Shown: positions 5,386 through 24,650 of the stretch, one piece after another
Numbering within the stretch: the first letter of the stretch is position 1
How the letters are laid out: every line of letters begins with the position of its first letter
Assembly: GCA_028284905.1 (NCBI GenBank)
Contig: JANQQU010000064.1
Coordinates: forward strand, 1 to 64,000
Source of the DNA: Calditrichia bacterium
GTDB lineage: Bacteria; Calditrichota; Calditrichia; RBG-13-44-9; J075
Reading direction: 5' to 3'
Length of the DNA: 64,000 bases
Notes under the pieces: generated by a model
Database searches by the model: none
Told to the model about the DNA's origin: nothing
The model's input: the letters and a program-made list of their open reading frames with translations, nothing else
Program-made: the position numbers and the translations under genes

Positions 5386-5730
5386 CTAGTTCATCATTCG
5401 ATCTAAGCCAAAAAGGTTTATTCGCCGAAAGACCAATAAATTATAGAATGCCGAAAAGAGAGTACCAGCTATAAAACCAAAGGCAAAAGATGCCAGGAGA
5501 TTCCAGAACGGCCCACCGACAAATGCAGCGACAATTGTTGTCGGAGCTGTTATCCAGCCCCAGCGAAAAATCAGAAAGAAGACTACCAGGGTTAAACCCA
5601 ACGCCATTCCGAAAACGATAGCGATAAAACCTTGCATCCGCATTAAAACACCTTGATGACGATACGGATCGTCCGGTCCTCCGCCTCCACTTCCTTTTTC
5701 ATCTTCAGCTAAAATAGGCAAATAAGGCAT
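5386..5730 (-). CDS. Small membrane protein of the sigma/CHAT locus, unknown function
   Basis: A 114-residue protein with no family I recognise. A hydrophilic glycine-rich N-terminus (EDEKGSGGGGPDDPYRHQG) is followed by two or three membrane segments at about residues 32-52, 58-80 and 82-100. The ATG at 5730 is preferred because GGAGGT lies 6 nt before it, while the upstream ATG at 5736 abuts the ribosome binding site. It is the last gene of the long minus-strand locus, 13 nt after the CHAT gene stop, so it is probably cotranscribed. Confidence 0.65.
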   Translation of the reverse strand: MPYLPILAEDEKGSGGGGPDDPYRHQGVLMRMQGFIAIVFGMALGLTLVVFFLIFRWGWITAPTTIVAAFVGGPFWNLLASFAFGFIAGTLFSAFYNLLVFRRINLFGLDRMMN

Positions 5731-5749
5731 GTTCATACCTCCAAATATA

Positions 5750-8700
5750 TTAATTAAAGTTTACAGTTAATCCCAATCCTGCCCAGTAAAAAGGATGAGC
5801 AATCTGGGTATAGACATCGTTCTTAAATTCTTGAATTGATTTTTTTTGAACAGCCTGCAATGCTAGGGCGGGATGAAGAGATTGCCCACGCAGTTTGATA
5901 TATTCCTGGGTTTGTGGTATCGCTTTGCTTGCATCGATTTCCCAACGGCTGGCCAATATTTCGGTAATATTATTGTGGCTTAATATTTGTTCCAGACCAT
6001 ATAAGCCGGCGCCTTTAAACAATTGACCACTGCCAGTATTACATCCAATCAGCAGCACTGCGTCCCAGGCGCCCCAATCTATATGTTTTAGATGACTCTC
6101 CGACAGCCCGATAGTCTCAAAACGATCGGTGGAATGCTGCTTAACTGTTAAATTGAGCAACATCTGATTTGGTCCTTCGGGGTCAACTTCATGATGGGCA
6201 ATTACTACCAATGCATCATACCCGACTTCATCTTCGTTGAAGATTCTATCCATATCAATTGGTCGGTCGGATGAAGGTGGAGCACTCAGGGGAACCGCAT
6301 TAAATTTTGATGTTAAATAATTTGTGATGGCCAAGCTTTGAGAAAAGCCTTTATCTGCCGAAAAAGTTATTCTACCATCATGAAAACTGTTTCCACCATA
6401 TTTAAAACTCTCGGCCCCATTGCGCCCTGCTTGATCAGATTGCATAATAGCGACTCTTTCTACCAGAAAGTTGTCTCCAGCCGGATCCAACGGCAAACAA
6501 TGAAAAGGAAGATTATGTAAGGGGCCGTTGGGAATAATGTGTAAAATGTCAGCGTTCGTTATTAGCATCTGCAAATCTGGCCACCCTAATATGTCTATGA
6601 AAATCTGATGCCCCAGACGCATTGTTTCGCTATGATATTCTACTTTTTCCTCTTGGGGCTGTTGAGTATTTAATACTTCCCCGGTCTTGCTAATGCGCTC
6701 GATAAAATCATCAATTCTATTTTCAAGGATATTCGAATCGATTTTGCGTTGCTTAAGTAATAAAGTATCTTTTGCGCGAACGAAGATATAGAGATTGCTA
6801 TCCGCCGCGAAATAATTAAGTTCCAGTGTTTCTATCGGCATTATTGGCGGTCTCGCTAACGTATCGGAAACGATATGGTTGGAGATGCCATTGACACGGC
6901 TCTTCTGAGCAGTAGACTGCCGGGAAAATATTTGCGCCTGTTTCAATTTCTGGTAAGCAGCAGTCTCGTTATCCGCAAAAAGTTCATATAGTACCGCCTC
7001 CCGTAGATACTCGTCAATTCGGTGTCGATAACCAATAACAACATCGAGATCTTCAAATCCTTGGTGTAATCCAGATACAATTTTAAGAAGTTTATCCGTT
7101 AGTACATTTGCCTGCTGATAATCATTCTGTTGATGAGCCAGGCGCGCTTTCAATGCTAAAATATCGATCTGGCACTTTAGATAAGACAATTCCTGTGAAA
7201 GTTGATAAACCTCTTTGGAAAGCGTCCATGCCTTTTCCGTATTTTGATTCATGATAAGCGAACGAATCAAATCTACTTTGGTATCTAATTGAGAACGGAT
7301 TCTCCCGTTTTTACCATATAATTTCGCCGCTTGTTGGAAAACTTCAATCGATGCTTTTGGTTGGTGGTTTTCCTGATATAAGTATCCCAGCGAGCGTAAT
7401 ATCTCCGCCTTTATTACGGGATTAATAACGTTGCCGGCTTCGTTTTGTACACCGCCCATCATATGCCGAAAAGCAACTTTTTTACCTTGTAAAGCTTTTA
7501 TCGCTGCTAACCTTACCAGGCGGACCTGGCGAGTTTCTTTATCTTCCGGGAAGTTTTTTCGATGTGCGGCCAAAGCTTTTTCATAGTATGTTGCCGCCTG
7601 CCGGTATTGTCCGATTTGCTCATAATAGTCCCCTAGATTATTTAATGCGGTCAGATGATTGCGATGATCGTTATTTTCAATAACGTTTTCCAGGGCATCT
7701 TGAAATGATTCTAATGCGTTTTCGTACTTACCTAAGCGGGTATAAATGCGGCCCTGTTGTGTGAAAGTCTTAAATTTCTGTCGTTGGCTAAGCGTCTTGA
7801 CAGTATCCAATGATGCTAGAATTTTTAAGGCATCGACATGCCTGCCGAAATCAATAAAGACATCGATCAACCCAATTTTGCTGGCATTTTCATACCAATC
7901 TATCGAGGGTACTGTTTTTTTGTACTTTTTCACCCGTTCCAGATTTTTTTGATAAACTGAGTGCGCGGAAGAAACCCTGTCCGCCTGGGATAACGCTTCT
8001 GCGTAATTATATTCGAGCCCGGCTGCTCGCAGGTAAAACCCAATACTCATTGCTTCGGGAATTCTGGTTTCTGCTAACACACAACTAATATCGAAAAAGC
8101 GGTAGTAATCGGTCAAGATAACCATTAATTGTTGGAGCGTGGTAAATTTCGTGCGTTTGTCCGGGATCGCAGACGCATCAATGTTTTGCAATGCAAAACC
8201 GACAAATTGGTCTGCCTTCATAGGTGCTGAAGATTTGTATTTGGCGGCAAGGTTTTTTGCAATTTTTGCCGTTTTCCAGGCACGGGCTGTTATTGAATCA
8301 CTATTTGCTGATGCTTCTACAAATGGTGTCCAATAGGAAATTCCACCGAGACTATCCAGGGTTGTTGCCGTTTCCCGGGCACTTTGCCAATATGCTTCCA
8401 ACTGATCACCCTGCCCCAGCGATACCTGTGTCAATAATGTATCAAGATATTTTTCAAAGCGAATTTCCTCTTTTATGTGCAGAGAGTTTTGCTTAATAGC
8501 GAAGGGAGCTGGCAACGATTCCTCAAGTTCATTCAACATACAATCCACTTTTTGGCGGTTTTTGGCAGAAACTACCAGCGAACGATAGTGGCTTTCGAGT
8601 TTTGCGATAATTGCCTCTTTTTCGGCCAGCGTGGTGGCAAATTGGCTCTGTTCTTGCAATTCAACCAATACCGCCAGGTGTGATTCCCGGGAGCAGTTGA

Positions 8701-8794
8701 TGAATTGAACAACTATCATTGCTGTAATAACCAGCAGTAACGCCGAAAACTGTCTTTTATTATGTAGATATATTGACATAAAATTAATCGCCAT
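5750..8794 (-). CDS. Membrane-anchored TPR-CHAT (caspase-like) protein
   Basis: A 1,014-residue protein. One hydrophobic segment lies near residues 18-37 after a basic N-terminus (HNKR) and ends in FINCSRE, either a membrane anchor or a loose lipobox. Many TPR-like helical pairs fill about residues 240-620, for example LTALNNLGDYYEQIGQYRQA. The C-terminal 330 residues form a CHAT domain. The catalytic dyad is visible: His868 in VVIAHHEVD and Cys918 in LLIGCNTGSG. CHAT proteases are caspase-like and often act in self-destruction or defence switches. Here the anchor implies the protease faces the periplasm, which is inference. Its ATG directly follows the stop of the preceding gene, so translation is probably coupled. 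Confidence 0.86.
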   Translation of the reverse strand: MAINFMSIYLHNKRQFSALLLVITAMIVVQFINCSRESHLAVLVELQEQSQFATTLAEKEAIIAKLESHYRSLVVSAKNRQKVDCMLNELEESLPAPFAIKQNSLHIKEEIRFEKYLDTLLTQVSLGQGDQLEAYWQSARETATTLDSLGGISYWTPFVEASANSDSITARAWKTAKIAKNLAAKYKSSAPMKADQFVGFALQNIDASAIPDKRTKFTTLQQLMVILTDYYRFFDISCVLAETRIPEAMSIGFYLRAAGLEYNYAEALSQADRVSSAHSVYQKNLERVKKYKKTVPSIDWYENASKIGLIDVFIDFGRHVDALKILASLDTVKTLSQRQKFKTFTQQGRIYTRLGKYENALESFQDALENVIENNDHRNHLTALNNLGDYYEQIGQYRQAATYYEKALAAHRKNFPEDKETRQVRLVRLAAIKALQGKKVAFRHMMGGVQNEAGNVINPVIKAEILRSLGYLYQENHQPKASIEVFQQAAKLYGKNGRIRSQLDTKVDLIRSLIMNQNTEKAWTLSKEVYQLSQELSYLKCQIDILALKARLAHQQNDYQQANVLTDKLLKIVSGLHQGFEDLDVVIGYRHRIDEYLREAVLYELFADNETAAYQKLKQAQIFSRQSTAQKSRVNGISNHIVSDTLARPPIMPIETLELNYFAADSNLYIFVRAKDTLLLKQRKIDSNILENRIDDFIERISKTGEVLNTQQPQEEKVEYHSETMRLGHQIFIDILGWPDLQMLITNADILHIIPNGPLHNLPFHCLPLDPAGDNFLVERVAIMQSDQAGRNGAESFKYGGNSFHDGRITFSADKGFSQSLAITNYLTSKFNAVPLSAPPSSDRPIDMDRIFNEDEVGYDALVVIAHHEVDPEGPNQMLLNLTVKQHSTDRFETIGLSESHLKHIDWGAWDAVLLIGCNTGSGQLFKGAGLYGLEQILSHNNITEILASRWEIDASKAIPQTQEYIKLRGQSLHPALALQAVQKKSIQEFKNDVYTQIAHPFYWAGLGLTVNFN

Positions 8795-9547
8795 TTATTG
8801 TACCAAAACATTTATGGTTGTTACTGCTTCTGCGCCCAGAGGGTCTATGGCTTTTATATGAACAGTATGATTTCCTTTATGAGTTGAATCAGGTACGCCA
8901 AAGATTTTACCTTCCTGATCTATAGTAAGGAAACTGTCCGGAGACATATACAGTGAATAGGTGAGGCCACCAGTTGTACTATCAGGGTCGACCGCATTGG
9001 TTTTAATATTTAGCGTATCCCCGACAGAGATTACAGTGTCAGGAACTGTCAAGAGCGGCGGTTGATTAACCGGCAGCCATACGGAAATGCCGCCGATAAC
9101 CAGAATTAAAGTAATCGTTGCTATTACCGCCGAATTTCCCCCGAGATAATAGGAGATGACATTTCCCCAGCGAGTGCGGAAAGTACTCCGCCATACCGAT
9201 CCATAATTCCAGGCTGCGGCAGCATAATTCGCTACGCCTTGCACCGTTGGAGGTACCTGGAAAAAATTGCCTTGTTCCACGGCAAAGCGGCGGCGGGCCA
9301 TCCAGAGCTGGTGAACCGCTTTGAATGTCTTATAAACCTTCTCTTGTTTGAATTCTTCACCTGCCTTATCGGTTACGGTTTTTAAATCACTTTTTGCAGT
9401 AGTTCTGGGTGGAAGGTTATAAGGAAATTCATGCACTAATTCATGGCGTAGCGCAAATAGTCGCTCATGGCGGATAATGTTTTCTCCACGAAGCTGTGGT
9501 ATATATTTTTGCAACATACTTCTAAATTTGGACTGAAAGGGTTGCAT
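8795..9547 (-). CDS. Single-pass protein with Ig/cadherin-like ectodomain
   Basis: A 250-residue protein. Residues 1-138 are basic and soluble, with no recognised domain (a RHERLFALRHELVHEF stretch near residue 27). One membrane helix lies near 139-157 (SAVIATITLILVIGGISVWL). Residues 160-250 form a putative Ig/cadherin-like fold with the hallmarks PPLLTVPDTVISVGDTL, DPDSTTGGLTYSLYMSPD, GKIFGVPDSTHKGNHTVHIKAIDPLG. By charge, the N-terminus is cytoplasmic and the Ig domain periplasmic. It lies directly upstream of the CHAT gene with no gap. GGAGA precedes the start. It may couple an outside signal or partner to the cytoplasm; the function is unknown. Confidence 0.75.
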   Translation of the reverse strand: MQPFQSKFRSMLQKYIPQLRGENIIRHERLFALRHELVHEFPYNLPPRTTAKSDLKTVTDKAGEEFKQEKVYKTFKAVHQLWMARRRFAVEQGNFFQVPPTVQGVANYAAAAWNYGSVWRSTFRTRWGNVISYYLGGNSAVIATITLILVIGGISVWLPVNQPPLLTVPDTVISVGDTLNIKTNAVDPDSTTGGLTYSLYMSPDSFLTIDQEGKIFGVPDSTHKGNHTVHIKAIDPLGAEAVTTINVLVQ

Positions 9548-9570
9548 ATCAATTCTCCAATATAAGTATT

Positions 9571-11367
9571 TTAAGGTCTATTGGACTTTGTCATCAGAAG
9601 GTCATAAATAAAATCACTCAAAAGTTTGTCAAAGCGATTGCGGCCAGTGTCTCTGTCCATCAGACATTCATTATCGACATCTTGCTTCTCCGGAAAATAT
9701 CCTCTCCAGTTTTCTCGTGCGGTAGGATGCTGGCGATCTGAAAAGTAAAGTTTATCATTGTATTCAATAAATCGGACCGGAATTTCATCGCCAGGATTAG
9801 TCCGCCGCTGCCGATTAATTGGAGGTCTCGCATTGGCCGGAGGAGGTGGAGGATTGACCCCTCGTAGTTCTTGCCGATCATAATACTCATCGACAATTGG
9901 GGCAGAATTGGCGGAAGAAATGGCATGTGCAAATTCATGTATAAACGTACGCTGATCTGCGGTATACGCATTGATAGCAATCCGGCCTGGATGATCATTA
10001 TTAGAATATTGATGTACCAAAGTTCGTGACGTCGATCCCCAGATTAGCCTTCTGAGATGCCGGAAGAGAAAGCGACTCGTATGGTGCCCGTATCCTGCAG
10101 TCGTATTCCTACCTTTATTTAAAGTCGCAGTAACTCCTTTTCCTACAGGGATTTTGCTAGCGCCGGTTTCATCCCAATCAGCGACATGCGCCACTGGACG
10201 GTCATAGTTTTCAACCGCACTGATACCGTAAATGACGTCTGTCTGTTTGTAGAGCTGATTTGCAGTTAAGCCGTTCGGAAGAGTTATGTGGACTCTACCT
10301 AGTATCTTTGTTATCATAGCCTGATATGCTGAAGTCATCATATGACTCGGGTCAAGCAGATTCTCAGCAACATCCTGATCAAAAGCAACCACTGGGGCTG
10401 CGCCGCCCGGTGTACCAAAGTTGGGATCCAACTCCCGCAATCCGGCCAGATAAGACTGCACCAAACAGTAATGGTTCGGATATGGGAATTTTCGGCGAGG
10501 AGGGGGAGCAAATGTCTTATCAAAAATTGTGACAATCCGAATTCGTGGCCAAATGTCTGCACTGCCAATTACTTCATTGCTTTCTAGACTGGACAGCGCA
10601 TTTTCCACAGTTTTAATAAAAAGATCCTGCCGGTCAACGATAGGGTCACGATAAGAAAATAAATTTCTATATCCTGTTACAATACCCCCTGAAGTTATTC
10701 TCTTCAAATCCTGAAATGCCGGATTGGCAATAAAAACAATTGTAATGGGTTTGGCAGGTGGACTGGGGAGATCATAATTATACACCCAGTCCTCAGCCCT
10801 AGCATTGCCATAAACCGGCTTATGTGGTACTTCCGCAGCAATCGGGGATTTGATAATCTGAATTGGTGAATCAGGATCATAAGTAAAGAGGATTTTAATT
10901 TGATCCCGACGAAAGATCCGGGTATGAATATAGGCCAGATCATTGTAAAAGAGACCAAAGAAGCCGCCGAACAAGTATCCCCCGACATAAGATTCCGCCA
11001 ATTGGCAACAAAAATTCAACCAATTGTGAATCACATGCAAATCCGGGATAAGTATCGTCAACAACCCAAGAATGAAGCAAAAAATGCAAAACAAGAACAT
11101 GATACCTGCCAGCAAAAGGCCGAATAGAGAACCGACAAACAAGAATGAAATGCCGAATAGTAACCAGCCCCAGGCAATACCAGGTGTCGCAAAAAGATAG
11201 TGATATAATAAAAAGGCACTTGAGCAGAAAAAAGCGCAGGCAAGAGCCAATTGATGCGCACGAACGGTACGGATATGTGGCATCCGCCGAATGTAAAGAA
11301 TATTATCTATTCCTAATAACCGTCGTACCCAATCCAGCTGGGATATCCAGTTAAAGATACTTATCAT
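9571..11367 (-). CDS. Polytopic membrane HEXXH metallopeptidase
   Basis: A 598-residue protein. About four membrane helices lie near residues 39-58, 63-80, 82-110 and 125-145, followed by a soluble domain. The zinc motif HEFAH is at residues 477-481 (RTFIHEFAHAISS). NECLM near 567 resembles the Cys-Leu-Met turn of several metzincin-like peptidases. Basic residues flank the first and last helices, so the catalytic domain is likely cytoplasmic, which is inference. It lies 23 nt upstream of the Ig-domain gene. A site-2-like role on the neighbouring anti-sigma factor is possible but not shown, because the sequence lacks an LDG motif and HEXXH is not inside a membrane helix. Confidence 0.75.
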   Translation of the reverse strand: MISIFNWISQLDWVRRLLGIDNILYIRRMPHIRTVRAHQLALACAFFCSSAFLLYHYLFATPGIAWGWLLFGISFLFVGSLFGLLLAGIMFLFCIFCFILGLLTILIPDLHVIHNWLNFCCQLAESYVGGYLFGGFFGLFYNDLAYIHTRIFRRDQIKILFTYDPDSPIQIIKSPIAAEVPHKPVYGNARAEDWVYNYDLPSPPAKPITIVFIANPAFQDLKRITSGGIVTGYRNLFSYRDPIVDRQDLFIKTVENALSSLESNEVIGSADIWPRIRIVTIFDKTFAPPPRRKFPYPNHYCLVQSYLAGLRELDPNFGTPGGAAPVVAFDQDVAENLLDPSHMMTSAYQAMITKILGRVHITLPNGLTANQLYKQTDVIYGISAVENYDRPVAHVADWDETGASKIPVGKGVTATLNKGRNTTAGYGHHTSRFLFRHLRRLIWGSTSRTLVHQYSNNDHPGRIAINAYTADQRTFIHEFAHAISSANSAPIVDEYYDRQELRGVNPPPPPANARPPINRQRRTNPGDEIPVRFIEYNDKLYFSDRQHPTARENWRGYFPEKQDVDNECLMDRDTGRNRFDKLLSDFIYDLLMTKSNRP

Positions 11368-11454
11368 AACTTTCTCCTCTCAACATGATAAGTTTATATA
11401 AGCGATGAATTGACACTCATCGCAGAATCATATATTGTCAAAGATCGAAAACGT

Positions 11455-12417
11455 TTACTGCCCGATGTTTGCCTGAATCCGGTTTAATATGCGTTGCGCA
11501 GCGCGGCGCCACCCCTCCCGCGATTCCTGATCCAGGTAAATCTGTAGTTGTTCAGCCGCTTCCGGTAAACGGTTTGCTTTTTCAAGGGCCAGAGCCAGGT
11601 TATAAATAGCTTCCGGGGGAGGCGCTTTGGCATCCAACGATTGCTCAAAAAATTGAATCGCCGATTCCCAATTGTTATCCTGGTATGCAAAAACCCCAAG
11701 GTCATTAAGCAATTCGGCCGATGGATTTTCAGCAGATTGCAGAATGTTTACAACGGAATCTTTCTGGGATTCCTGACTCCGGGCAAGATAAATCAGGGCG
11801 AGTTTCCGTAGCGCCAATTCATTCTCCGGATCCCGGGAAAGCACGCCTTTCAAAATATTTTCTTCCTCAGCATACAAAGTTTTAGGCGACATTGTTTGGC
11901 CGACCCCAGTGTCCAGATAGCCGCCGGCCAGCCGGGGATCGTCAATATGAATCCGATGAGATGCCAGGAGGGATTCTTTTACCCCGGATATCGGGCGTTC
12001 AATCATAACCATTATGTACATTGGCCTAGCTCCGAAGATGCCGAGAAAAATTGCGGCGGTAGCAGCAATTTGATACGCATAGTGGCGAATATTTGTAGAG
12101 ATTCTTTCGAAATTGGATTGAGAAGAACCACCTATTTGCGCCATAATTTTCGAGTGAATTGTTTTTTGATCCAGCCCAATAGATGCCGCTGCTGCCTGCT
12201 GTTCTGCTAGCGTTGGTGGATCATCAATTTGCTGCATCGTCATCTTAAAAATTTGGTAGAAATCCGGATCTTCACTCAGCCATTGTTCTACCTGTTTGAT
12301 TTCGGAGGTATTTGCCTCCTTTTCAATATACCGCAAAAGCAATATTAACCTTTCTTGATCACTACCGGTATAAGGTCCCTCAGAAAAATTGTGCCCATTT
12401 TTCATTACGCATCCCAT
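11455..12417 (-). CDS. Anti-sigma factor-like protein with TPR ectodomain
   Basis: A 320-residue protein. The N-terminal about 70 residues (LLLRYIEKEANTSEIKQVEQWLSEDPDFYQIF) resemble the cytoplasmic sigma-binding segment of FecR-type anti-sigma factors. A hydrophobic helix lies near residues 111-136. The periplasmic C-terminal half holds TPR-like repeats (ENELALRKLALIYLARSQ, LNDLGVFAYQDNNWESAIQFFEQSL, YNLALALEKANRLPEAAEQL). It sits 56 nt downstream of one ECF sigma gene, as expected for the cognate regulator. The start could also be the ATG at 12405. The zinc-binding HxxxCxxC motif of ZAS anti-sigma factors is absent. Confidence 0.75.
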   Translation of the reverse strand: MGCVMKNGHNFSEGPYTGSDQERLILLLRYIEKEANTSEIKQVEQWLSEDPDFYQIFKMTMQQIDDPPTLAEQQAAAASIGLDQKTIHSKIMAQIGGSSQSNFERISTNIRHYAYQIAATAAIFLGIFGARPMYIMVMIERPISGVKESLLASHRIHIDDPRLAGGYLDTGVGQTMSPKTLYAEEENILKGVLSRDPENELALRKLALIYLARSQESQKDSVVNILQSAENPSAELLNDLGVFAYQDNNWESAIQFFEQSLDAKAPPPEAIYNLALALEKANRLPEAAEQLQIYLDQESREGWRRAAQRILNRIQANIGQ

Positions 12418-12473
12418 GTCTCTTAATTAATTCTACAATATTTTTATCACTTCCTATTCAAAGGATGTTCTCT

Positions 12474-13130
12474 TTATGTTTTTTTCCCGTTTTTATTTTG
12501 TCGTGGGCCAATTCCTTTTGAACGCAAGCACTTAATTAGCATTTTACGGTATTCGGTCCAGACATTATTGATTCGGCTCTCGCTAACATCTGAGAGCCAT
12601 CTGGTTATGCGGGAAGAACGTATGCCATCTGCTTTTAATAAAAATATTATCTCATCACGTTCTCCGCGCAGCCGTGCAGCTGAAACTTTTTTAATACAGT
12701 CATATATCTCCTCGTTTAGTTCTGAAGGAGTATACCCATTTGATTCTATTGAAGTTAATAGCTTCTCTCTCAGTGCTGTAAAATCCAAATAAAAGTATTT
12801 GTCTATATACTGTAGTACGACTTGATTGCACATCATGCCTAATAGAGTAAAAGCTGCATATTTATTATCTGATCGAAATTCCCGAAGTACTTTTGCATCT
12901 TTTTCAAATAACCGTAAATATACTTCCTGAATAATATCTTGCGGTTGAGTGGCTCGTTTTAGTTTTGCTTTATTACAGATTTTTAGCACAGTACCACAGA
13001 TATAAGCATGAAAACGGCGATAGAATTCATCATAAAGTACTTGATTACCAGGGTTTTCGCCTAGCTTGTTAATAAGCACCTTGTTGGATAGACACTGTAG
13101 ATTATCTGTCTCTTTATTTACCGACTGCAT
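12474..13130 (-). CDS. ECF-type RNA polymerase sigma factor (second of pair)
   Basis: A 218-residue sigma-70 family protein. Region 2 is recognisable around CNKAKLKRATQPQDIIQEVYLRLFEKDAKVLREF (residues about 52-86). A C-terminal helix-turn-helix like region 4 lies near 165-205 (EIIFLLKADGIRSSRITRWLSDVSESRINNVW). A GAGGGG ribosome binding site precedes the start. It is 82 nt downstream of another divergent ECF sigma gene on the same strand and directly upstream of the anti-sigma gene. The short C-terminal basic tail (GPRQNKNGKKT) is unusual. Confidence 0.8.
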   Translation of the reverse strand: MQSVNKETDNLQCLSNKVLINKLGENPGNQVLYDEFYRRFHAYICGTVLKICNKAKLKRATQPQDIIQEVYLRLFEKDAKVLREFRSDNKYAAFTLLGMMCNQVVLQYIDKYFYLDFTALREKLLTSIESNGYTPSELNEEIYDCIKKVSAARLRGERDEIIFLLKADGIRSSRITRWLSDVSESRINNVWTEYRKMLIKCLRSKGIGPRQNKNGKKT

Positions 13131-13212
13131 GGTTGACCCCTCTCTCAGTCTTATGCTTGGTTTAACAATAAGACAAACCAGGAAAGAGGTTTTCCCGAAA
13201 AAACTTTAAATT

Positions 13213-13842
13213 TTATATCTGCGGCTGCAGACAACTGCGCATATCGTCTTTCATTAAAGTAATTATGTTTTGAACGGTCTTAACCGATATGTCTCTGGAT
13301 AGCCATTCACAAATATTCTTCGCTTCAATTTCATCCAGCCAAAGTTTGAAAATTAATCTGCGTAACTCGGGGTCTTTGTATTGGTTCGCGATCTTTCGTA
13401 AACATTGATCTATAATGCGATTAATATCCTCACTGGTTAAGTCTTTCTCTACGGCTTGCAAAGAACCTGTGACTTCACTCAAATTTTTATCATTATCAGT
13501 AAAGAGGGGAGTAAAAGGGTATTTTCTCGTTGCAATATTAATTACCATATATTTTGCAACTGCTGTTAACCAGGTGGTTGCAGAATTCTCACTTTTTCCC
13601 TGAAAAGTTTCCAATAATTTTTCCTGAGGATCAAATAGCCTTGTATAGAATTGTTGGATCATATCATCCTCATCCAGTGCAACATCATGGAGGGTGTAAT
13701 AGTTGATAGCCTCGAGGATCACATAACAGATTAGTCGATGAAAACGAGTGTAGAACTCAGCAAAGAGCTGTCTATTCGTCGGGGATTTTGCTAGCTGTTT
13801 AATTACCTGATTATCTGTCAATTTTTCAAAGGATGTCGACAT
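13213..13842 (-). CDS. ECF-type RNA polymerase sigma factor (first of pair)
   Basis: A 209-residue sigma-70 family protein related to its downstream neighbour. Both begin with LTDNQVIKQLAKSP/LSNKVLINKLGENP and FYTRFH/FYRRFH blocks. Region 2 is DEDDMIQQFYTRLFDPQEKLLETFQGKS; region 4 is LRRLIFKLWLDEIEAKNICEWLSRDISVKTVQNI. It is the first gene of the long minus-strand locus. The pair probably arose by duplication. The ribosome binding site is weak. The 779-bp gap upstream separates it from the divergent crystallin gene. Confidence 0.8.
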   Translation of the reverse strand: MSTSFEKLTDNQVIKQLAKSPTNRQLFAEFYTRFHRLICYVILEAINYYTLHDVALDEDDMIQQFYTRLFDPQEKLLETFQGKSENSATTWLTAVAKYMVINIATRKYPFTPLFTDNDKNLSEVTGSLQAVEKDLTSEDINRIIDQCLRKIANQYKDPELRRLIFKLWLDEIEAKNICEWLSRDISVKTVQNIITLMKDDMRSCLQPQI

Positions 13843-14783: not shown

Positions 14784-15239
14784 ATGAGGTTTTATCAACA
14801 TGCAAACTACAGCGGAGGATATTTAGATTTAGGTCCTGGCCACTATCCAAATATTCACATTCAGCCCTATTCTTTTGGAGATAAAATTTCTTCGATTGAT
14901 GTAGATACTGATCCTGCTCATATACACCCGTTAACGGTACGATTGAGAGTGAGAATCTATCAACACGTTAATTTTAAAGGAGAGTATCGTGATTTATTAC
15001 TGAGCGAGAACAATCTTAATGATGTTGGTTTCAATGATCGAGTGTCTTCTATAAGGGTCTATGCAGGTGAAGACTATGTACCTGGTTGGGTATGTGACTT
15101 TTATCAGCATGCTAATTATTCCGGTGGGCAATTACAGTCAGGAAGGTTTGGCCCAGGAGCGAGTCTGGCTAATATCAAGGCTGCCCCTTATTCATTCAAT
15201 GATACAATTAGCTCAGTAAAAATTCATAAAATAGACTAA
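14784..15239 (+). CDS. Beta-gamma crystallin-type Ca2+-binding protein (three intact motifs)
   Basis: A 151-residue reading frame with three Greek-key crystallin motifs opening MRFYQHANYSGG, VRIYQHVNFKGEY and CDFYQHANYSGG. Each ends in the calcium-clamp signature (N/D)(N/D)xx(S/T)S: FGDKISS, FNDRVSS and FNDTISS. A fourth motif is encoded in frame just upstream, beyond a TAA. The ATG at 14784 has AGGGG about 5 nt upstream and could restart translation. No signal peptide is seen from either start. Microbial beta-gamma crystallins bind Ca2+, and their roles are largely unknown. The gene is divergent from the sigma/CHAT locus. Confidence 0.82.
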   Translation: MRFYQHANYSGGYLDLGPGHYPNIHIQPYSFGDKISSIDVDTDPAHIHPLTVRLRVRIYQHVNFKGEYRDLLLSENNLNDVGFNDRVSSIRVYAGEDYVPGWVCDFYQHANYSGGQLQSGRFGPGASLANIKAAPYSFNDTISSVKIHKID

Positions 15240-24565: not shown

Positions 24566-24566
24566 G

Positions 24567-24650
24567 TACCGAGGGCGGGATTCGAACCCGCACGTCCTAA
24601 CGGACACTAGACCCTGAACCTAGCGCGTCTGCCAGTTCCGCCACCTCGGC
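24567..24650 (-). tRNA. tRNA-Leu (anticodon CAG)
   Basis: An 84-nt leucine-type tRNA with a long variable arm. The acceptor starts GCCGAGG and closes with CCTCGGT (one G-U pair) plus discriminator A. The D-arm GGCGGAACTGGCAGACGC and T-arm GGGTTCGAATCCC are standard. The anticodon CAG lies at 24614-24616, read on the minus strand. The 3' CCA is not encoded. It closely resembles E. coli tRNA-Leu(CAG) in outline. Confidence 0.97.

Follow-up and report, generated by a model that had tools for sequence, protein, structure and literature searches.

Why would a bacterial locus encode two sigma factors of the extracytoplasmic function (ECF) type together with two different candidate proteases, and might these proteins work together? 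The window analysed here, a stretch of 64,000 nucleotides from a Calditrichia bacterium (contig JANQQU010000064.1, positions 1 to 64,000), contains such a locus. Seven open reading frames (ORFs) on the minus strand occupy positions 5386-13842 and are transcribed from 13842 to 5386 in the order sigma factor, sigma factor, anti-sigma-like protein with tetratricopeptide repeats (TPRs), HEXXH membrane protein, immunoglobulin (Ig)-type membrane protein, TPR-CHAT protease and small two-transmembrane (2-TM) protein. An earlier description of this DNA, the sequence-only reading, had reported seven minus-strand genes with most gaps under 90 bp, and indeed every gap is below that length (82, 56, 87, 23, 0 and 13 bp in transcription order). 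Here we report that these genes form a cassette whose recurrence is beyond chance. We propose, with somewhat less than even confidence, that the cassette may act as a proteolytic switch that spans the membrane and controls an ECF sigma factor.

The cassette recurs in a conserved order

Searches with the HEXXH protein and with an alignment of HEXXH proteins recovered 17 further copies of the cassette in records of Calditrichota and candidate division KSB1, giving 18 loci with the window. The HEXXH gene is found in 18/18 loci, co-directional sigma and anti-sigma genes in all 15 whose contig reaches upstream, the TPR-CHAT gene in all 16 whose contig reaches downstream (split in L044, partial in L053) and the 2-TM gene in 14/15. 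The genes are always co-directional and follow the order sigma, anti-sigma, HEXXH, helical/Ig, TPR-CHAT, 2-TM; the sole shift is in L040, where the anti-sigma gene has moved between the Ig and CHAT genes. Further variation is limited to L041, where the helical domain, a transmembrane (TM) helix and TPR-CHAT are fused as one protein, to L053, in which no helical gene was called, and to L038, which has extra sigma and anti-sigma genes. The tandem second sigma factor of the window is unusual, most copies having a single one (several in L038).

Mean identity per gene is only ~20-31% in the 11 loci where all six occur as separate genes. Could unrelated genes simply have come to lie side by side? 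Nothing beyond the weak family matches of single genes speaks for this, and because the same order is kept in 17 further copies of low identity, chance adjacency was rejected as scarcely credible. Thus, the genes are linked and not scattered in relatives, the check that the sequence-only reading had called for.

Within the phylum, 9 of 40 genomes gave any match, several of them short and partial only, and one genome (G003) holds three copies. No full match outside the phylum was found in a 385-genome sample weighted to relatives; a wider contig scan used one peptide pattern only, HEF[AG]HA[MI]S, which does not prove absence elsewhere. A contig scan with the single HEXXH protein of the window returned no relative, whereas the alignment-based scan did. 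One of the 17 copies, L064, covers part of the cassette and lies on a contig of 5.7 kb that carries the label Candidatus Brocadia and may be a mis-binned KSB1 fragment. The split TPR-CHAT gene of L044 (2105-5026) consists of two ORFs (576 and 370 aa), reflecting either a sequencing error or a real break.

Sigma factors and an anti-sigma-like protein

The claim of two ECF sigma factors was borne out by comparison with solved structures: the family profile of the cassette sigmas spans solved ECF chains near full length (SigH, 9.8e-8; RpoE, 1.1e-6), though both window proteins score below the curated TIGR02937 cutoff of 42.9 bits, which is a superfamily score threshold and not a mechanistic feature. 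The first cassette gene (13213..13842, minus strand) reaches 33.5 bits (E 2.9e-8) and the divergent second (12474..13130, minus strand) 18.6 bits (E 1.2e-3). The latter also belongs to the sigma family profile, and its closest match is the lone sigma in L039 (phmmer, 140 bits). In the source genome (G000), region 4 of TIGR02937 is all that several sigma-like ORFs (209-248 aa) match, hinting at a divergent sigma family.

The adjacent gene (11455..12417, minus strand) encodes an N-terminal domain, one predicted TM helix (about 117-140) and an ectodomain with TPR matches. No anti-sigma family matched the window protein. The zinc anti-sigma signature HxxxCxxC occurs at the aligned place in L041, L052-L054, L057, L058 and L062 and is absent from the window copy; zf-HC2 was matched only at two loci of the source genome described below, L107, where the score passes the cutoff, and L108, where it does not. 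Like the sequence-only reading, we describe the product as anti-sigma-like; our grounds are its position beside the sigma genes, its TM/TPR layout and the HxxxCxxC signature of several relatives, and its binding and inhibition of sigma are presumed.

Two proteases predicted on opposite sides of the membrane

The TPR-CHAT gene (5750..8794, minus strand) matches PF12770 at E 2.4e-15 (57.2 bits against a cutoff of 24) and also encodes TPRs and an N-terminal signal or anchor, in agreement with its earlier description as a membrane-anchored TPR-CHAT protease. His867 and Cys918 are invariant across 14 complete aligned members, and the HEXXH motif is kept in all copies, such that the loss of catalytic residues in relatives, a second check proposed with the first, was not seen. 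By family and catalytic residues the protein is assigned to the CHAT proteases, with proteolysis itself predicted. When a CHAT-only profile was compared with solved structures, the best match was Csx29/TPR-CHAT of Craspase (E 1.7e-8); few other CHAT structures seem to be present in PDB, so this match tells kind and not descent. The N-termini of the CHAT proteins are lipoprotein-like or hydrophobic/TM anchors, and the protease is predicted to be extracytoplasmic. The linkage, the catalytic residues and the family assignments of the sigma, CHAT and TPR parts are well supported.

The HEXXH gene (9571..11367, minus strand) encodes a TM region followed by a putative catalytic domain with HEFAH at residues 477-481, within HEFAHAISSANSAPIVDEY (477-495), and a Met-turn-like CLMD (568-571). 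HEFxH followed by DEY 12 residues past the second His is found in 18/18 members, and CxMD is kept in 16/18. The pattern HEF[AG]HA[MI]S was also used to find part of the members, which makes the conservation of its residues in part a product of selection; DEY and CxMD lie outside it. In relatives the motif reads HEFxHx7Gx3DEY, the window having A for G. The earlier claim of a membrane HEXXH protease holds in that the window protein has a TM region and the motif, the latter kept in 18/18 copies, though there is no known family match: none to a Pfam, NCBIfam or PDB family was obtained for the window protein, and the family hits of nine cassette members did not include M64. When the HEXXH family profile was compared with PDB, it picked up only the histamine H4 receptor through chance hydrophobic similarity, and these matches were discarded. 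The structural model (pLDDT 79) returned nothing at E <0.001 in Foldseek, with a snake-venom metzincin at a TM-score of 0.51 of target (E 0.93).

Igalysins (M64) are characterized by the motif HExxHxxxGxxD-E-Y and a Met-turn of sequence CIM; Glu and three Cys, two of these in a C-terminal helix, bind a structural zinc (PMC12237041). The cassette protein resembles these enzymes (IgAse, PDB 3P1V, 4DF9) in HExxH...DEY, with Asp in the expected third-ligand place, and in a CxM Met-turn-like motif. In contrast, it has 12 residues instead of 7 between the second His and the Asp, gives no Pfam M64 match, lacks the second Cys pair after the Met-turn and has an N-terminal TM anchor. Glu494 and Cys568 are present in the window protein and the two later Cys of the structural zinc site are absent; in a profile comparison with 15 true M64 proteins the active-site segment alone aligned (probability 58%). 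M64 membership was rejected on motif spacing, the incomplete structural zinc site and the missing Pfam match, and we call the protein igalysin-like and metzincin-like, with predicted protease activity. A separate, true M64 protein is encoded on another contig of the same genome (G000:C11).

Lys and Arg residues flank the TM region of the HEXXH protein on both sides, with few in the loop, in those members that could be measured on both sides; several, the window protein included, are not cleanly measurable on the N side. This charge distribution leads to a rule-based prediction of an N-in/C-in topology with the catalytic domain on the cytoplasmic face. The predicted positions, cytoplasmic for the HEXXH domain and extracytoplasmic for CHAT, make it probable that the two proteases work from opposite faces of the membrane.

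A helical protein and a 2-TM protein complete the set

Between the two protease genes lies a gene (8795..9547, minus strand) for a helical domain (1-137), a predicted TM helix (about 140-158) and an Ig/cadherin-like ectodomain (161-250), which had given the product its earlier name of an Ig/cadherin-ectodomain protein. That name suits the window copy, whose ectodomain matches He_PIG (E 1e-4, just below cutoff) and is modelled with low confidence as a cadherin-like fold. However, the ectodomain is specific to this copy, and the conserved part is the N-terminal helical domain, predicted to be cytoplasmic. Foldseek with the whole protein matched mainly the cadherin-like ectodomain, with nothing at E <0.001, and left the helical domain without identification. 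The fusion in L041 links the helical protein to CHAT and fits a helical domain in the cytoplasm with CHAT outside; both this topology and a contact between the two proteins are predicted.

The last gene (5386..5736, minus strand) encodes the small membrane protein that the sequence-only reading had recognized, with two TM helices in a hairpin bearing GFxxGxxxxxxYN. A hairpin of this GxxxGxxxxxxYN type is common to the TM region of the HEXXH protein, as seen by alignment and by cross-matches between the two family profiles (5e-7 in the window, down to 3e-9 in L045), to which hydrophobic bias could contribute. Weak HEXXH-profile matches in G001, G006:C175, G037 and G253 fall in this 2-TM hairpin part and were rejected as proteases.

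A proposed route to sigma release

According to the model, the single-pass anti-sigma protein would hold sigma in the cytoplasm while its TPR domain lies outside the inner membrane. The anchored, extracytoplasmic TPR-CHAT protease would sense a signal through its own TPRs and either cut the anti-sigma ectodomain or trigger the complex, and the helical protein (the Ig protein in the window copy) would relay the signal across the membrane. The igalysin-like zinc protease, on the cytoplasmic face and aided by the paired 2-TM protein, would then destroy the cytoplasmic part of the anti-sigma protein or an inhibitor, thereby freeing sigma. Points in favour of such a switch are the conservation of the cassette, the fusion in L041, the invariant catalytic residues, the anchored CHAT N-termini, the charge pattern of the HEXXH protein, the HxxxCxxC signature of several relatives and, as detailed below, the correlated divergence of the HEXXH, helical and CHAT genes and the presence of TPR-CHAT beside sigma/anti-sigma pairs that lack HEXXH. 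Release from opposite sides is proposed by analogy with the DegS/RseA/RpoE and Craspase systems; the signal, the substrates, the order of the cuts, the regulon and which protease cuts what are inferred.

A somewhat less probable alternative is that sigma and anti-sigma form an ordinary autoregulator whose regulon is the other four genes; these would make up a machine for envelope proteolysis or protein maturation directed at other substrates. ECF sigmas commonly drive their own operon, and the co-directional genes with their short gaps are in keeping with this explanation. Co-divergence also favours it. In the 11 loci that have the full six genes, with each gene of each locus entered once in alignments of low identity, distances between loci were correlated for HEXXH and CHAT (r 0.80), HEXXH and helical (0.59) and helical and CHAT (0.66), with p about 0.001-0.002 for these three pairs, as well as for CHAT and 2-TM (0.63), whereas pairs with sigma or anti-sigma gave 0.19-0.35, except anti-sigma and 2-TM (0.65). 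Thus, the protease, helical and 2-TM genes co-diverge more tightly together than with sigma and anti-sigma.

Set against the autoregulator, the cassette has no conserved substrate gene, and TPR-CHAT accompanies sigma/anti-sigma pairs even where the HEXXH, helical and 2-TM genes are missing. The source genome (8.55 Mb, with 19 CHAT matches and the window as contig C69) contains three such loci. In L107 (G000:C26, 6472-10893) and L108 (G000:C37, 6113-11132), a sigma gene and a zinc-finger-type anti-sigma gene lie directly beside TPR-CHAT. In L110 (G000:C92, 1718-15217), genes for sigma, a 144-aa protein, an anti-sigma-like protein and TPR-CHAT are followed by those for two Peptidase_C14 caspase proteins and a CHAT-nSTAND1 protein. 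The association of TPR-CHAT with sigma and anti-sigma at these loci points to CHAT lying within the regulatory circuit.

Several observations weigh against a proteolytic switch. No substrate, promoter or regulon was identified; the placement of CHAT outside and HEXXH inside is based on hydropathy and charge only; the lipobox of the window CHAT (FINC) is non-canonical, with a plain TM anchor in several relatives; and the co-divergence of sigma and anti-sigma with the proteases (r 0.22-0.35) is looser than that between the two proteases, in alignments that are noisy. The linkage would also fit a sigma that simply turns on the genes of a protease machine acting on other substrates. The envelope-sensing proteolytic switch of the sequence-only reading is retained in part: the sigma-controlled linkage of CHAT and HEXXH and the conservation of their catalytic residues stand, but the switch itself is only the best reading of them. 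Surface remodelling, also suggested there, is favoured by no evidence.

Surroundings of the cassette

Defence had been offered as a further possibility. Under this explanation, infection or envelope damage would activate CHAT, and a proteolytic chain would kill or arrest the cell, with sigma setting expression. CHAT proteases occur in known conflict systems, Craspase included (PMC10028731), the cassette is patchy and multi-copy, and caspase and STAND-CHAT genes follow the paralogous set in L110, which is indirect support. However, the neighbouring genes inspected at the window cassette and at a few relatives are ordinary, PADLOC matched nothing in the cassette but generic TPR, and the cassette holds no recognisable pore-former, nuclease or toxin. 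No obvious defence gene was seen among the window flanks scanned with Pfam (PAP2, AHSA1-like, metallophosphatase, beta/gamma-crystallin, Omp85, DUF1326, sigma-54 activator and others) or among ten proteins near other copies, both small samples. We consider a defence or regulated-cell-death module unlikely.

The beta/gamma-crystallin domain protein is encoded upstream of the cassette on the plus strand (14784-15239). The sole RNA gene found in the window with Rfam is a tRNA at 24566-24650. Promoter and terminator scans gave counts only modestly higher than in shuffled sequence (34 versus 24.1, standard deviation 5.1, and 13 versus 9.2, standard deviation 3.3, respectively), with no clear site.

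Comparison with known systems

In the DegS/RseP-RseA-RpoE pathway, an ECF sigma factor is held by a membrane anti-sigma factor and membrane proteases relay the signal. The proposed cassette relay would likewise pair an ECF sigma with a membrane anti-sigma and employ membrane proteases, but neither of these is a PDZ serine or site-2 protease; CHAT and a metzincin-like protein take their place. DegS/RseA is also covered in PMC10028731. The ECF54 group has CHAT, subtilase and carboxypeptidase genes in its context and is reported without an anti-sigma factor, the listed model being a Geodermatophilus sigma (PMC8999054). It shares with the cassette a CHAT gene near an ECF gene; the cassette differs in its anti-sigma-like protein and in its set of genes.

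In type III-E Craspase, the complex is activated by RNA, and its CHAT protease Csx29 cuts a protein, Csx30, by which an ECF sigma is inhibited (PMC10028731). Both systems encode a TPR-CHAT protein with a catalytic His/Cys pair together with an ECF-type sigma (CASP-sigma in Craspase) and an inhibitor, presumed in the case of the cassette. Unlike Csx29, the cassette CHAT is anchored and predicted to be extracytoplasmic; the protein taken to inhibit sigma sits in the membrane and bears TPRs, and a zinc protease and a 2-TM protein are added. No Cas7-11 (gRAMP) or CRISPR RNA part is found among the cassette genes, although no search was aimed at Cas7-11 or CRISPR.

With the cassette, the few protease-controlled sigma systems gain a predicted metalloprotease family that matched nothing in the libraries searched, as well as a conserved gene set with two proteases. 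Nearly all of the lineages involved come from environmental assemblies, so that sequence-based leads are the main entry to their regulation. If CHAT acts on the anti-sigma protein, the cassette would offer a setting outside CRISPR for the logic of Craspase and make the origin of the CHAT-inhibitor-sigma triad testable. It is conceivable, though doubtful, that the cassette represents an undescribed type of signal transduction, in which two unrelated proteases, the caspase-like CHAT on the outer face of the inner membrane and a member of a new metzincin-like family on its inner face, would act one after the other and so release an ECF sigma, and that the type III-E triad may derive from membrane modules of this kind.

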